This document shows, in pieces, positions 5,978-61,273 of a stretch of 64,000 nt of DNA (its first letter is position 1; every line of letters begins with the position of its first letter). Under the pieces are notes generated by a model, which did not search any database, was not told the DNA's origin, and saw nothing but the letters and a program-made list of their open reading frames with translations. The translations under genes and the position numbers were made by a program. Source of the stretch: Bacteroidota bacterium (GTDB lineage: Bacteria; Bacteroidota; Bacteroidia; 2-12-FULL-35-15); assembly GCA_947479085.1 (NCBI GenBank), contig CANJYB010000009.1, forward strand, positions 62,001-126,000. Reading direction: 5' to 3'.

Positions 5978-6028
5978 TTACCGCAGAGGTAGCTGAGAAT
6001 TACGCTGAGAAACGCTGAGGTGCAGGTT
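5978..6028. repeat. CCGCAGAG / CGCTGAG repeat patch
   Basis: Four spaced motifs (CCGCAGAG, GCTGAG, CGCTGAG, CGCTGAGG) at roughly 10-15 base intervals. The same family as 37674-37784, 38177-38225 and 39042-39142, here as a half element without its inverted partner. Confidence 0.6.
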
Positions 6029-35958: not shown

Positions 35959-36246
35959 ATGTCCGACACACAATTACCCGTTTGGGAAGTTTTTATACAG
36001 GCAAATCCTGGAATACCTCACAAACATGCAGGAAACGTGCATGCAGCTGATGCAGAGATGGCTTTGCAAAATGCAAGAGATGTTTATTCACGCAGAAACG
36101 AAGGGATGAATATCTGGGTAGTTCCAGCCAATGCAATAACTGCAAGTAGTCCGGAAGACCAGGGAGCTTTCTTTGAACCATCAAATGATAAACCTTACCG
36201 TCACCCGACATTCTATAAAATCCCTGAAGGAGTTAAATATTTATAA
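35959..36246 (+). CDS. paaB: Phenylacetyl-CoA epoxidase subunit PaaB
   Basis: 95 aa. Matches PaaB from LPVWEVFIQANPGIPHKHAGNVHA and the later WVVPANAITAS and HPTFYKIPEGVK. PaaB bridges the PaaAC units of the epoxidase complex and has no active site. It follows paaA after a 98-bp spacer filled with AACTAATAAC-type short repeats. Confidence 0.94.
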   Translation: MSDTQLPVWEVFIQANPGIPHKHAGNVHAADAEMALQNARDVYSRRNEGMNIWVVPANAITASSPEDQGAFFEPSNDKPYRHPTFYKIPEGVKYL

Positions 36247-36324
36247 AAATGTATTGAGATATTAGTATTAAGATTAAGTGCACTAATACGAAGCATCTCA
36301 AGACTCAATCTCATATCTAAAGAA

Positions 36325-37083
36325 ATGAACTTACAACAAGCTAAATTTGAATACCTCCTTCGCTTAGGAGACAGCAGTTTAATCATTGGTCATCGTTTGT
36401 CCGAATGGTGCGGACATGGGCCCATCCTCGAAGAAGACATTGCTTTAACCAACATTGCTTTGGATTTTGTTGGTAATGCCACCGCACTTTTAACCTATGC
36501 TGCTCAGGTAGAAGGTAAAGGCCGCAATGAAGACGATCTTGCATTTATGCGTGACGAAAGGGAGTATCGTAATTTGTTAATTACAGAACAACCTAATGGT
36601 GATTACGCTGCTACTATTGCCCGTCAGTTTTTATTCGATACGTATATGTATTTTCTTTACAAAGAATTAAAATCAAGTAAAGATGAAACCATTGCAGCCA
36701 TTGCAACAAAATCTCATAAAGAAGTAACTTATCATTTGCGTCATAATACCGAATGGATGTATCGGTTAGGAGATGGAACTGCTGAAAGTCATGAACGTTT
36801 ACAAAACGGAATAAATGATTTATGGATGTTTACCGCTGAACTATTCGATATGGATAAGGTGGATGAATTACTTATTAAAGAAGGCATTGCCCCTGATTTG
36901 AATAAAGTAAAAGCGGAATGGGAAAAGCGTGTGAAAGAAGTGTTAATCGAAGCAACTTTAGAAATACCAACAACTACTTTTAAACAAAAAGGAAGCAGGG
37001 AAGGCAAACATTCCGAACATTTAGGTTTTTTACTTGCAGAGATGCAATATGTTCATCGGGCACATCCGGGAGCAAAGTGGTAG
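36325..37083 (+). CDS. paaC: Phenylacetyl-CoA epoxidase structural subunit PaaC
   Basis: 252 aa ferritin-like helical protein, paralogue of PaaA without a full iron site. Recognised by LRLGDSSLIIGHRLSEWCGHGPILEEDIALTN-type opening and the C-terminal EGKHSEHLGFLLAEMQYVHRAHPGAKW motif (shown in parts: LGFLLAEMQYVHR, HPGAKW). It forms the stable PaaAC heterodimer. Separated by a 78-bp spacer from paaB and 88 bp from paaD. Confidence 0.93.
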   Translation: MNLQQAKFEYLLRLGDSSLIIGHRLSEWCGHGPILEEDIALTNIALDFVGNATALLTYAAQVEGKGRNEDDLAFMRDEREYRNLLITEQPNGDYAATIARQFLFDTYMYFLYKELKSSKDETIAAIATKSHKEVTYHLRHNTEWMYRLGDGTAESHERLQNGINDLWMFTAELFDMDKVDELLIKEGIAPDLNKVKAEWEKRVKEVLIEATLEIPTTTFKQKGSREGKHSEHLGFLLAEMQYVHRAHPGAKW

Positions 37084-37171
37084 AACTACGAATAAAGAAT
37101 TTCATCGAATAACGAATCTGTTTAAATCTTGGTAATCTTTGGTGAATTAGTTTTATTATTCCTTTCAAAAA

Positions 37172-37666
37172 ATGAATTCCGTTATAACTAAAGAAGAAAT
37201 TTATAAAATCCTTTCAGAAATTCCTGACCCTGAGATTCCCGTTATTAATATACATGATTTGGGAATTTTAAGAGAAGTGAAATTGGAAGCAGGTGTTTGC
37301 ACGGTAGTGATAACCCCAACTTATTCTGGCTGTCCGGCAATGAAAGTAATTGAAGATGACATTAAAATTAAACTCAAAGAAGTCGGTATAGAAAAAGTCA
37401 AGGTAGAATTGGTTTATTCTCCTGCCTGGACAACCGACTGGATAAATGAAGAAGCCAAAGAAAAGTTAAGAGCTTACGGCATTGCTCCACCTGACCATTC
37501 AACAGTTGATAAAAAAGTATTGCTCGGAAAGCCCCGCGAATTAAAGTGCCCCCTATGTGGTTCTATTCACGCCGAAATGATTTCTCAGTTTGGTTCTACC
37601 GCATGCAAGGCTCTTTACCGTTGCCTCGATTGCAAAGAACCATTTGATTATTTTAAATGTCTTTAG
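37172..37666 (+). CDS. paaD: PaaD (MIP18-type, epoxidase maturation)
   Basis: 164 aa. N-terminal DUF59/MIP18 domain with PDPEIPVINIHDLGI and the conserved TYSGCPAM Cys, then a C-terminal zinc-ribbon-like part with CPLCG, a Cys in STACKALYRC, CLDC and a final KCL, that is at least six Cys. It is thought to assist iron-cluster or metal assembly for PaaE/PaaA. Last gene before a repeat-flanked insert. Confidence 0.92.
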   Translation: MNSVITKEEIYKILSEIPDPEIPVINIHDLGILREVKLEAGVCTVVITPTYSGCPAMKVIEDDIKIKLKEVGIEKVKVELVYSPAWTTDWINEEAKEKLRAYGIAPPDHSTVDKKVLLGKPRELKCPLCGSIHAEMISQFGSTACKALYRCLDCKEPFDYFKCL

Positions 37667-37673
37667 GTGAAAA

Positions 37674-37784
37674 TAACCTCAGAGAAAAATGGAGAAGTCA
37701 CAGAGAGCCGCAGAGTAAGAAAAATAATGAATAAATTAAACTCTGCGGTTCTCAGCGTATTTTCTCTGTTAACTCAGCGGTAAA
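37674..37784. repeat. CTCTGCGG-type imperfect hairpin (left of GxxExxY gene)
   Basis: Left arm (37674-37719) carries CAGAG, CACAGAGAG, CCGCAGAG; right arm (37739-37784) carries CTCTGCGG, CTCAGCG, CTCTG, CTCAGCGG in inverted order. The whole folds into a long imperfect hairpin ending 17 bp before the GxxExxY start. Confidence 0.75.
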
Positions 37785-37801
37785 AATAAAAACATCAACT
37801 C

Positions 37802-38179
37802 ATGACCGAAAACGAAATAACCGAAATAGTAATTGGATGTTCAATAAAAATCCACAAAGTTCTGGGCCCAGGATTATTAGAATCAGCCTATGAAGAATGT
37901 TTGTTTTATGAATTGAAAAAGTCAGGGTTATTAGTCGAGAAGCAAAAACCTCTTCCATTGATTTATGAAGAAGTTAAACTGGATTGCGGTTACAGGATGG
38001 ATTTTGTGATAGACAATAAAGTTGTAGTAGAAATAAAGTCGGTGGATGCTTTAAACGAAATTCATCTCGCACAAATTTTGACTTATTTAAAACTTTCCAA
38101 TTGCAAAGTTGGATTACTAATTAATTTTAATGTATTAAAACTGGTTGATGGAGTTAAACGAGTGGTTAATAAATTTTAA
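37802..38179 (+). CDS. GxxExxY family protein (PD-(D/E)XK nuclease-like)
   Basis: 125 aa. Signature GPGLLESAYEECL (G-x-x-E-x-x-Y) near residues 22-34, a central YRMDFVIDNKVVVEIKSV segment with Asp, Glu and Lys arranged like a PD-(D/E)XK nuclease site (D, then ExK), and LAQILTYLKLSNCKVGLLINF. The family is small, widespread and of unknown function, often in several copies per genome. It breaks the otherwise continuous paa gene order and is bordered by CTCTGCGG-type repeats on both sides; its stop codon TAA is the first three bases of the right repeat. This suggests it arrived with them. Confidence 0.88.
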   Translation: MTENEITEIVIGCSIKIHKVLGPGLLESAYEECLFYELKKSGLLVEKQKPLPLIYEEVKLDCGYRMDFVIDNKVVVEIKSVDALNEIHLAQILTYLKLSNCKVGLLINFNVLKLVDGVKRVVNKF

Positions 38180-38225
38180 CTCTGCGGTTCTCTGCGTGTT
38201 TTTTCTCTGCAAACTCTGCGGTTAA
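38177..38225. repeat. CTCTGCGG repeat (right of GxxExxY gene)
   Basis: Four CTCTGC words (CTCTGCGG, CTCTGCGT, CTCTGC, CTCTGCGG) in the same orientation as the right arm of 37674-37784. It begins at the stop codon of the GxxExxY gene. Confidence 0.75.
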
Positions 38226-38233
38226 TTTTTCTT

Positions 38234-38241
38234 TATCTTTA
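38234..38241 (+). promoter_or_regulatory. -7 box (TATCTTTA) before paaG
   Basis: One mismatch to TAnnTTTG, 19 bases before the paaG ATG, just outside the repeat. It may restore expression of the downstream paa genes. Confidence 0.4.
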
Positions 38242-38260
38242 CAAAAATATTTAAAATAAT

Positions 38261-39037
38261 ATGAGTTTTATTAAAACAGAAATTGAAGGAAGTGTAATGA
38301 AAATAACGCTTAACCGTCCTGATAAGTTCAATAGCTTTAATCGTGAAATGGCTTTGCAATTGCAGGATTCATTGGATAAAGCATCAATAGATAATACAGT
38401 AAGGGCAGTATATTTAACAGGTGAAGGCAAAGCATTTTGTGCAGGACAAGACCTTTCTGAAGCTATGGATCCCAATGGTCCCGGAATAGAGCGAATAGTT
38501 AGAGAACATTACAATCCGATTATTCAGAAAATAAGAGCAATTGAAAAACCTGTCGTATGCGCAGTAAACGGAGTAGCTGCAGGAGCAGGTGCAAACATAG
38601 CATTAGCATGCGATATAGTAATTGCCGGAAGCGGGGTTTCATTTATACAGGCATTCAGCAAAATTGGTTTAATACCCGATAGCGGTGGGACTTTCTTTCT
38701 TCCCCGTTTAATTGGTTTTGGCAAAGCCTCAGCTTTAATGATGCTTGGAGACAAAGTTTCAGCAGCTGATGCCGAACGAATGGGAATGATTTATAAAGTA
38801 ATAGAGGATATCAACTTACAGGCCGAAGCCTTTGCAATTGCAAAAACAGTTGCAGATTTACCAACCAAAGGAATAGGATATACCAAACGTTTATTAAATA
38901 AAACAATGGTTAATTCTATGGAAGAACAATTGGAATACGAAGCAGATATGCAGGTACATGCAACCACTACTTATGATTATACCGAAGGAGTAAATGCATT
39001 TTTAGAAAAAAGAAAAGCAGTATTTAAAGGGGAATAG
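38261..39037 (+). CDS. paaG: Enoyl-CoA hydratase/isomerase PaaG
   Basis: 258 aa crotonase-fold enzyme. Oxyanion-hole segments FCAGQDLSE and GVAAGAGANIALACD and the isomerase-type acidic residue in IGLIPDSGGTFFLPR fit PaaG, which converts the ring epoxide of phenylacetyl-CoA to oxepin-CoA and also acts in later beta-oxidation. PaaF-type hydratase is the alternative, but the GLIPDSGG sequence favours PaaG. It has its own likely promoter after the GxxExxY insert. Confidence 0.88.
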   Translation: MSFIKTEIEGSVMKITLNRPDKFNSFNREMALQLQDSLDKASIDNTVRAVYLTGEGKAFCAGQDLSEAMDPNGPGIERIVREHYNPIIQKIRAIEKPVVCAVNGVAAGAGANIALACDIVIAGSGVSFIQAFSKIGLIPDSGGTFFLPRLIGFGKASALMMLGDKVSAADAERMGMIYKVIEDINLQAEAFAIAKTVADLPTKGIGYTKRLLNKTMVNSMEEQLEYEADMQVHATTTYDYTEGVNAFLEKRKAVFKGE

Positions 39038-39041
39038 TTAT

Positions 39042-39142
39042 TTAACCGCAGAGAAATGGGAGAACACGCAGAGAACCGCAGAGAAAATAAATATGTAAAC
39101 TCTGTGGCTCTCTGCGAAAACTCTCAGCGAACTCTGCGGTAA
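39042..39142. repeat. Solo CTCTGCGG hairpin between paaG and paaH
   Basis: Left arm TTAACCGCAGAG ... GCAGAGAACCGCAGAG pairs with right arm CTCTGTGGCTCTCTGCG ... CTCTGCGGTAA around a loop of about 8-15 bases. About 45 bp long per arm with few mismatches. It has no gene inside, in contrast to 37674-38225. Confidence 0.8.
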
Positions 39143-39152
39143 ATTTATTGAT

Positions 39153-40313
39153 ATGAAACAAATAGGAATAATAGGGTCAGGAGCTATGGGCGCAGGAATA
39201 GCTCAGGTAGCAGCAACAGCAGGACACAATGTTACTGTGTATGACAATACTCAATCTGCACTTGATAAAGCAAAAACTAATTTAGAGAATACTTTAAAGA
39301 AGTTAGTTGAAAAGCAAAAACTCACTGAGGAAGCAGCTAAAGGTATTTTAGCGAGAACAAATTTTGCAAATGAATTAAATCAATTCAAAGATTGCGGATT
39401 AATCATTGAAGCTATTATTGAAAACATTGATGTAAAACAAAAATTGTTTTCTGAATTGGAAACAATTGTTTCGGATGATTGCATCTTAGCGAGCAATACT
39501 TCTTCTCTCTCCATTGCATCTATTGCTTCAGCCTGCAAAAAGTCAGAAAGGGTAATAGGAATTCATTTCTTTAATCCAGCACCATTAATGCCCTTGGTTG
39601 AAATTATTCCAGCTATTACTACTGACGAAAAAATAACGAAAGAATCAAAATCAATTATTGATAGTTGGGGCAAAGTAACTGTACTTACAAAAGATACTCC
39701 CGGCTTTATTGTTAATCGTGTAGCCCGTTCTTATTATGGCGAATCCATTCGTATTTATGAAGAAGGCATGGCTGACTTCGTAACCATTGATTGGGCAATG
39801 AAAACATTTGGTGGTTTTAAAATGGGACCTTTCGAATTGATGGATTTTATCGGGAACGATATTAATTACAAGGTTACCGAAAGTGTTTGGACTCAATTTT
39901 TCTTTGAACCTAGGTTCAAACCATCATTGACTCAGAAACGTTTGGTTGAGGCCAGATTATTTGGACGTAAATCAGGAAGAGGGTATTATAATTATGCAGA
40001 AGGAACAGTTTTGCCTGAACCAGATAAAAATGAAGAATTAGGCAAATACATTTTTAATAGGGTTATTTCTATGTTAATCAATGAAGCGGTAGATTCGCTT
40101 TATTTGAAATTAGCAAGCAGGGATGATTTGGATTTAGCAATGACTAAAGGGGTGAACTATCCAAAAGGACTATTAAAATGGGCAGATGAAATTGGTTTGC
40201 AAAATATCTATAACACTTTAGATGTTTTATACGAGTTATATAATGAAGAGCGGTATCGCCCTTCTATATTAATGAAGATGATGCTAAAGGATAATAAGAA
40301 GTTTTATGAGTAA
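39153..40313 (+). CDS. paaH: 3-hydroxyacyl-CoA dehydrogenase PaaH
   Basis: 386 aa. NAD site GSGAMGAGIAQVAATAGH at the N-terminus, catalytic region IGIHFFNPAPLMPLVEII and TPGFIVNRVAR, then a duplicated C-terminal helical domain. It oxidises 3-hydroxyadipyl-CoA in phenylacetate breakdown. The last 8 bases overlap the paaI start (ATGAGTAA), a translational coupling. Confidence 0.9.
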   Translation: MKQIGIIGSGAMGAGIAQVAATAGHNVTVYDNTQSALDKAKTNLENTLKKLVEKQKLTEEAAKGILARTNFANELNQFKDCGLIIEAIIENIDVKQKLFSELETIVSDDCILASNTSSLSIASIASACKKSERVIGIHFFNPAPLMPLVEIIPAITTDEKITKESKSIIDSWGKVTVLTKDTPGFIVNRVARSYYGESIRIYEEGMADFVTIDWAMKTFGGFKMGPFELMDFIGNDINYKVTESVWTQFFFEPRFKPSLTQKRLVEARLFGRKSGRGYYNYAEGTVLPEPDKNEELGKYIFNRVISMLINEAVDSLYLKLASRDDLDLAMTKGVNYPKGLLKWADEIGLQNIYNTLDVLYELYNEERYRPSILMKMMLKDNKKFYE

Positions 40314-40728
40314 AGAATTAGCAAAAAAGATAGTTGATAAAATGATGGCTGAAGATAAGTTCAGCCAATGGCTGGGCATTGAAACAGTATTGATTGAACA
40401 GGGCCATTGCATTCTAAAAATGAAAATACGAGAAGAAATGGTAAATGGATTTGGCATTTCTCATGGAGGTATCGCTTTTTCATTTGCCGATAGTGCTCTC
40501 GCATTTGCTTCTAATGCTTATGGCAGATTAAGCGTTGCATTGGAATGTTCTATTTCTTTTGCTATTGCTGTTAAAGTAGATGATGAATTAATTTGCGAAG
40601 CAAAAGAATTAAGTATCACTAATAAAACTGCTACTTATCACATAGAAATTAAAAATCAAAAAGAAGAAAAGGTAGCTTTCTTTAAAGGTACTGTTTACCG
40701 AACAAGTAAAGAATGGCAGTTAGGATAA
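40306..40728 (+). CDS. paaI: Hotdog thioesterase PaaI
   Basis: 140 aa. Hotdog fold with the PaaI-type catalytic motif GISHGGIAFSFADSALAFA (Gly-Gly and Asp). It removes CoA from dead-end intermediates that would trap it. It is coupled to paaH by an 8-bp overlap and is followed by tandem array F. Confidence 0.9.
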   Translation: MSKELAKKIVDKMMAEDKFSQWLGIETVLIEQGHCILKMKIREEMVNGFGISHGGIAFSFADSALAFASNAYGRLSVALECSISFAIAVKVDDELICEAKELSITNKTATYHIEIKNQKEEKVAFFKGTVYRTSKEWQLG

Positions 40729-56874: not shown

Positions 56875-57105
56875 CCGAAGTGTGATATGGCAGAAAACAA
56901 CATTTTTGCCCTATATCCGAAGTGTGATATGGCAGGAAACAACATTTTTTCCCTATATCACACTTCGCTCTTCTGCCAAAACAACATTTTTGCCCAATAA
57001 CCGAAGTGAGATATGGCAGGAAATAACATTTTTGCCATATATCACACTTCGTACTTCTGCCAAAACAACATTTTTGCCCTATGTCACACTTCGCATATTG
57101 GCCTT
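56875..57105. repeat. Tandem array G: 11 subunits of 21 bp, 42-bp alternation with inverted subunits
   Basis: Two alternating subunit types in perfect 21-bp register. Type 2 is AACAACATTTTTGCCCT plus TATAT. Type 1 comes in two opposite forms: CCGAAGTGTGATATGG followed by CAGAA, and CACACTTCG followed by NNCTTCTGCCAA, which is its reverse complement in the key words CGAAGTGTG and TGGCAGAA. Order is forward, forward, inverted, forward, inverted, inverted, so the array can fold on itself. Confidence 0.92.
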
Positions 57106-58053: not shown

Positions 58054-58535
58054 AAAGTAATTATGAGTTATGAATTATAAATTATGAAGGCAAAGGTAGA
58101 AAAACTTGGTACGCAGATTTTATATGTTTTGTATTATGACTAAAAATGATTTATGTCTCAAAGATTGGAGTTATGATTAAAATGGATGTTTAAAACTTGG
58201 TACGCAGATTTTATATGTTTTGTATTATGACTAAAAATGATTTATGCCTCAAAGATTGGAGTTATGATTAAAATGGATGTCACCCGAGAGCGCATATCAT
58301 AATTGCCGAAGGCTTAAATCATAACTCAAATCAAAATCATTTTTTATCATCATTAATAAGTTAAATCTGCGTACTATTTTTTCTGTTCCAAAGAAAACCT
58401 TGGAGAACCTATATATTAAACCTTGAAGGTTTGATAAAGAAAATATGTAAGTTTGGAAAATAATTCTGTAAAAAATAGTTTCTAATAAATGAGTAATTTA
58501 GCCCCCAAATGCCAATAGACTATTAATACAAGACT
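58054..58535. other. 482-bp gene-free divergent region with a duplicated palindromic element
   Basis: Holds four heptamer repeats (TATGAGT, TATGAAT, TATAAAT, TATGAAG) at 58062-58092 and the element 58101-58375. No gene seen. Confidence 0.7.
58101..58375. mobile_element. Palindromic element with duplicated left arm
   Basis: An 89-bp segment beginning AAAACTTGGTACGCAG occurs twice in tandem (58101-58189 and 58192-58280), differing at a single base (TGTCTC/TGCCTC). The following 95 bases carry the reverse complement in scattered words: AATCATAACTC against GAGTTATGATT, and TTAAATCTGCGTAC against GTACGCAGATTTTA. So it is a long imperfect palindrome whose left arm has duplicated. Confidence 0.6.
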
Positions 58536-61109: not shown

Positions 61110-61273
61110 TATATGTCGTCCCTACGGGACTTATGGAATGGCACTGATAATTATTACTACCGATATTTTGTCCCTACGGGACATTTTAAAACTATTGTCT
61201 GCTCCGTTAGGAGCAAAATATCGGTAGAAAGAACAAAACAGAGCAATTTAAAGTCCCGTAGGGACGACATATA
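61110..61273. mobile_element. Nested palindrome with GTCCCTACGGGAC ends
   Basis: Outer arms are a perfect 23-bp inverted repeat (61110-61132 with 61251-61273) carrying GTCCCTACGGGAC. Inner arms CTACCGATATTTTG / CAAAATATCGGTAG (61157-61170 and 61214-61227) enclose two small hairpins, GTCCC-TAC-GGGAC and GCTCC-GTTA-GGAGC. The element fills the space between two outer-membrane genes and has no gene. GTCCCTACGGGAC-type repeats recur in other Bacteroidota genomes. Confidence 0.75.

Follow-up and report, generated by a model that had tools for sequence, protein, structure and literature searches.

Inverted arrays of a 7-bp word flank most GxxExxY genes and co-vary with the encoded protein

Genes of the GxxExxY family are strongly associated with inverted arrays of a short word, and this link is strongly word-specific, the version of the word following the encoded protein. 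We consider it likely (probability of roughly 0.6) that the gene is the core of a word-array element whose product recognises its own word and spreads or maintains hairpins, where binding, cutting and copying or insertion are steps that we infer. Support for the element comes from the association itself, word specificity, co-variation of word and protein, gene-less (solo) copies, empty sites and conserved catalytic residues.

As proposed here, each GxxExxY gene would form the coding core of a short intergenic element with inverted arrays at its two ends, in which the 7-bp word C[AG]C[ATG][AG]A[GT] recurs at intervals of approximately 10 bp. The gene product, a minimal RecB/Cas4-like nuclease, would recognise its own version of the word, as co-evolution suggests, and would cut the hairpins or forks formed by the arrays, and this cutting may lead to spread or maintenance of the element together with its gene-less hairpin derivatives. 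In the openly accessible journal literature, searched for the protein name and for the repeats, only two papers used the family name and no description of the pairing was found. If confirmed, the partnership would provide a function for an almost unstudied family, explain a large class of intergenic hairpins, supply many natural word/protein pairs with which to decode DNA recognition by a 125-residue nuclease, and make it testable why S23 proteins, familiar from intervening sequences in rRNA, bear similar arrays.

The element in the paa cluster and its predicted nuclease

Within the window (the whole 64-kb stretch of DNA that was analysed), a GxxExxY gene lies between paaD (37172-37666) and paaG (38261-39037). 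The copy is ordered L-R-gene-R, with a full hairpin of left and right arms upstream and an extra right arm on the 3' side (Table 1). The upstream hairpin (∼37675-37785) is imperfect but complete and consists of CTCTGCGG-type words. The feet of the hairpins read TAACC and GGTTA or GGTAA. Eight occurrences of CTCTGCGG were found in the window versus 0.54 expected, seven of them at 37708-39139. RNA folding z-scores relative to shuffled sequences were -6.7 for the upstream hairpin and -10.0 for the solo hairpin. The first-pass annotation had described a gene bracketed by CTCTGCGG-type repeats, a hairpin ending ∼17 bp upstream, a repeat starting at the stop codon and a gene-less hairpin one gene later; together, profile matches, word counts, the sequence itself and RNA folding confirm this description. 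A single unpaired arm elsewhere in the window is, judging by its words, probably a decayed copy.

Table 1. Coordinates of the GxxExxY gene and of word-array features in the window.
Feature	Position	Strand	Words or content	Basis or placement
GxxExxY protein gene	37802-38179	+	125 aa	profile matches, conserved residues, model
Left arm, upstream hairpin	37675-37716		CTCAGAG, CACAGAG, CGCAGAG toward gene	sequence, word match, RNA fold
Right arm, upstream hairpin	37740-37785		CTCTGCGG, CTCAGCG, CTCAGCGG	3' end ∼17 bp before ATG
Downstream right arm	38180-38225		three CTCTGCG words	begins directly after stop codon
Solo (gene-less) hairpin	39042-39142		same word as gene locus	paaG-paaH gap, one gene downstream
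Single unpaired arm	5979-6025		CGCAGAG/CGCTGAG words	sequence only

Other repeats were also observed in the window. The paaC-paaD spacer (37084-37170) contains words resembling TACGAAT and CTTTGGT, which may be left over from other word arrays; a different repeat type, a hairpin built on GTCCCTACGGGAC, is found at 61110-61273; and two more long imperfect inverted repeats lie at 58192-58382 and 56918-57051, one of them with TACGCAGATT ends.

The product of the gene matched TIGR04256 with 150.2 bits (cut-off 35) and PF13366 with 146.5 bits (cut-off 22). Above cut-off, the profile search returned GxxExxY/PDDEXK matches only and no transposase domain. Conservation across the family is complete or almost complete at H18, D67, E77-x-K79 and Q91-xxx-Y95; the catalytic D67, E77 and K79 of the PD-(D/E)XK motif are invariant. 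This H/D/ExK/QxxxY pattern is that of RecB/Cas4-like nucleases. The AlphaFold model (pLDDT 94) had its best structural match in the PDB with SSO0001, in our reading a Cas4, at a Z of 10.4 over 101 residues. A PDB sequence search found no match. PADLOC Cas4 profiles gave weak matches (best E 2.9e-4), and no cas genes were named among the immediate neighbours scanned. The protein is predicted to be a minimal nuclease of RecB/Cas4-like type whose catalytic residues are all intact, and the PD-(D/E)XK-like core assigned to it in the first-pass annotation is consistent with both residues and model. It resembles Cas4/RecB-like nucleases in fold and catalytic motif pattern, but differs from them in standing alone, at a length of 125 aa, and in having flanking repeats of its own. 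In-frame stops occur in a few members of the family (L177, L194, L205 and L239), as expected of a dispensable gene.

Word arrays and their co-variation with the protein

The family sample comprised 188 GxxExxY loci with full 200-bp flanks. More than half of these loci (56%) had an inverted-repeat score of at least 15 between the two flanks. The same threshold was reached by 2.6% of 954 neighbouring genes and by 4% of flank pairs that had been mismatched; of 30 ParE toxin genes, which served as a control from a small accessory family, none reached it. The common word in the flanks is C[AG]C[ATG][AG]AG. Two or more inward-pointing words occurred on both sides of 59% of the 188 loci versus 0.5% of the 954 neighbours, so the enrichment anticipated in the earlier reading of this locus was found. 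Same-strand word spacing peaked at 9-10, 21 and 31 bp, near integral numbers of DNA helical turns.

GxxExxY proteins are present in approximately half of the 296 genomes of the phylum that were sampled (genome-wide statements are based on pattern and family searches and the stretches around their matches). The window's genome has five GxxExxY genes, all of them with flanking inverted repeats and each with a different word (CGCAGAG, CACAAAG, CACAGAG, CACATAG and ACGAAT). The CTCTGCGG-type repeats first put forward as the partner of the family hold that place at the window locus, but are just one among many words used. In other phyla, sampled through ten named genomes, arrays were seen at most, not all, copies in genomes labelled Planctomycetota, Anaerolineae, Pyrinomonadaceae and Spartobacteria, and one Anaerolineae genome had four copies with four words. 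A minority of loci (L387, L380, L390, L394, L400, L401 and L381) had no recognisable words in their 230-bp flanks.

Upstream and downstream arms of a locus agreed closely at three of the four variable word positions (r 0.88-0.91) and less so at the fourth (r 0.34). Agreement between arms was 92% for word positions versus 80% for linkers, a contrast that is only indicative since the aligned stretches were picked by similarity. Word distance tracked protein distance (Mantel r -0.37, with 0 of 1000 permutations as strong), including among protein pairs below 70% identity (r -0.33). On the protein tree, the three positions required 22, 24 and 7 word changes, compared with means of 46, 48 and 12 for shuffled labels. 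Related proteins from different genomes had the same words, and same-genome paralogues differed more in word than identity-matched cross-genome pairs (1.82 versus 1.50; P 0.008); genome background therefore does not explain the word. Taken together, the Mantel, tree and paralogue comparisons indicate that the word follows the protein rather than the genome. The association between residue and word was strongest at residues 7, 8 and 103 and weaker at 122; on independent pairs these associations were not significant, with candidates 7, 103 and 122 in the right direction. The simplest reading of the co-evolution is that the nuclease would itself recognise the word.

Gene-less copies, empty sites and competing readings

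The tandem-word pattern occurred on average 11.7 times per genome in genomes with GxxExxY (n=149) and 0.8 times in those without (n=147), compared with 0.33 and 0.45 for a reversed-pattern control; these counts include the genes' own arms and are uncorrected for genome relatedness. Word pairs outnumbered GxxExxY genes by 81 to 6 in one genome (G170) and by 109 to 5 in another (G222). Many of the solo copies are compact, near-perfect hairpins, and the window's genome has more gene-less hairpins elsewhere that carry the window word or a close variant. In G170, G222 and G292, the word of a resident gene equals the main solo word or comes close to it; for G206 and G049, no resident gene's word exactly equals the main solo word. 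By eye, no replichore strand bias was seen for the solo copies of G170. That genome also contains hairpin tandem arrays with periods near 205 and 237 bp (C1:2592583-2593406 and 2706473-2707353), and at one locus (L316) the loop of a CGCAAAG hairpin contains a nested CACGAAT hairpin.

Empty sites were found in relatives. The closest relative in which both paa gaps were readable (G300; PaaG 92% identical) lacks the gene element as well as the solo hairpin, and short paaD-paaG spacers are also present in several other members of the genus. Comparison of the paaD-paaG spacers in relatives had been suggested in the first-pass annotation. In what appears to be the miaB-sigma54 gap of Flavobacterium, the spacer measures ∼31 bp in three species; in others it is occupied by a GxxExxY element whose two arms match and are made up of CRCAAAT, CACGAAT or CACAGAT words. 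Both names, Flavobacterium and miaB, are our own assignments, based on the sequences and on relatives that bear names. TGAAACC-word hairpins (L272, L275 and L289) were also observed in this gap, which holds GxxExxY elements in other species. A search for target-site duplications gave a possible TTATT at 39038-39152 relative to G300 and nothing consistent at other sites.

Another insertion, downstream of a methionine-aminopeptidase-like gene (named from sequence), is common to seven Flavobacterium loci from several species, with arms retained. GxxExxY elements are therefore often vertically inherited. Copies within a genome are mostly old (median identity 50%) and the only recent ones seen were two adjacent duplicates; the age of these paralogues makes it less likely that the gene itself moves often. 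Fixation of identical insertions across deep lineages, named at the outset as evidence against a partnership like that of RAYT and REP, is thus seen in part. The enriched association, own-word specificity, co-variation, solo copies and empty sites speak for such a partnership. Against it stand the insertion common to several species, the age of the paralogues, the lack of a consistent target-site duplication, the minority of loci without recognisable arms, the inexact match of the main solo words in G206 and G049, and the residue associations that fell short of significance.

The best-placed competing reading, which we nonetheless regard as unlikely, is that the arrays are operators or autoregulatory sites, with the GxxExxY protein binding its own word to control expression or protect the locus, and solo copies being decayed remnants from which the gene was lost. 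The ∼10-bp phasing would suit a protein that binds double-stranded DNA, and the retention of arms over long vertical descent in Flavobacterium and the higher agreement of words than of linkers fit as well. However, solo copies far exceed genes in G170 and G222, the many compact hairpins do not resemble deletion relics, and the catalytic residues remain conserved.

A slightly less probable reading places the action of the hairpins in RNA, where signals for processing or insulation would allow an operon to tolerate the insertion, with other machinery moving the element and the nuclease travelling as linked cargo. The stability of the solo and upstream hairpins as RNA is in keeping with this, as is the shared direction of the element and its upstream gene in 85% of scorable cases; a precedent is the Coxiella 23S intervening sequence, which is excised by RNase III and holds an S23 protein ORF (PMC4990558). 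Yet linkers would pair equally well in RNA and agree less than words do, and words follow the nuclease sequence across genomes. Coincidence, in which repeats and small horizontally moved genes both accumulate in intergenic spacers, is very improbable, as it is disfavoured by the controls (0 of 30 ParE toxin genes and 0.5-3% of neighbouring genes) and by locus-specific words that agree between arms and with the protein.

Comparison with known systems and the S23 family

If a GxxExxY nuclease spreads or maintains hairpins by cutting its own arrays, as we propose, it would work like RAYT with REP using an unrelated enzyme. RAYT/REP systems (REPtrons, REPINs) likewise have a usually low-copy gene, hairpin-forming flanking repeats and many gene-less repeat copies, and the dispersal of the flanking repeat in gene-free form is also found for GxxExxY elements. 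The logic is the same; the enzyme and the repeat architecture are not. RAYT, an IS200/IS605-type HUH tyrosine transposase, acts with GTAG-tagged REPs (PMC2817692, PMC3116915, PMC3733652), whereas GxxExxY is a PD-(D/E)XK nuclease by fold and its repeats are inverted 7-bp word arrays with helical spacing. Identity with RAYT (HUH motif, catalytic tyrosine) was ruled out by the profile matches and fold, and the hairpins are not REPs, since the GTAG tag is absent at the hairpin foot. Pairs of insertion sequences and MITEs also share inverted terminal repeats and short gene-less derivatives; in contrast, the GxxExxY element has arrays of words as its arms where those pairs have fixed terminal repeats, and profile searches found no transposase gene or domain.

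The 23S rRNA intervening sequence with its S23 protein (PMC4990558) is similar in being a tiny single-gene element with hairpin-forming ends, but GxxExxY is a different protein, with a period of ∼10 rather than ∼7, and lies outside rRNA. The paa element itself is not an rRNA intervening sequence, given its location in a protein-coding cluster rather than in 23S rRNA and the lack of any Rfam match at 36000-40500.

Among the neighbouring genes, 25 had a flank score of at least 15. Approximately ten of these are so near to a GxxExxY gene (within ∼210 bp) that its arms may be common to both; the remainder include four matches to TIGR02436 (the S23 four-helix-bundle family) and another two that are similar to it by eye. 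When thirty TIGR02436 loci outside rRNA were scored, 33% had a flank score of at least 15, and the flank repeats had a period of 7. A general class can tentatively be envisaged, although we would not yet bet on it: small proteins that act on nucleic acids would co-evolve, as lock and key, with the inverted word arrays that flank their genes. The protein family would set the spacing (∼10 bp for GxxExxY, ∼7 bp for S23), and the nuclease would copy or maintain arrays by a mechanism used by no known transposase. S23 genes with inverted word arrays of period ∼7 were seen at L241-L270 and at L168, L171, L179 and L192.
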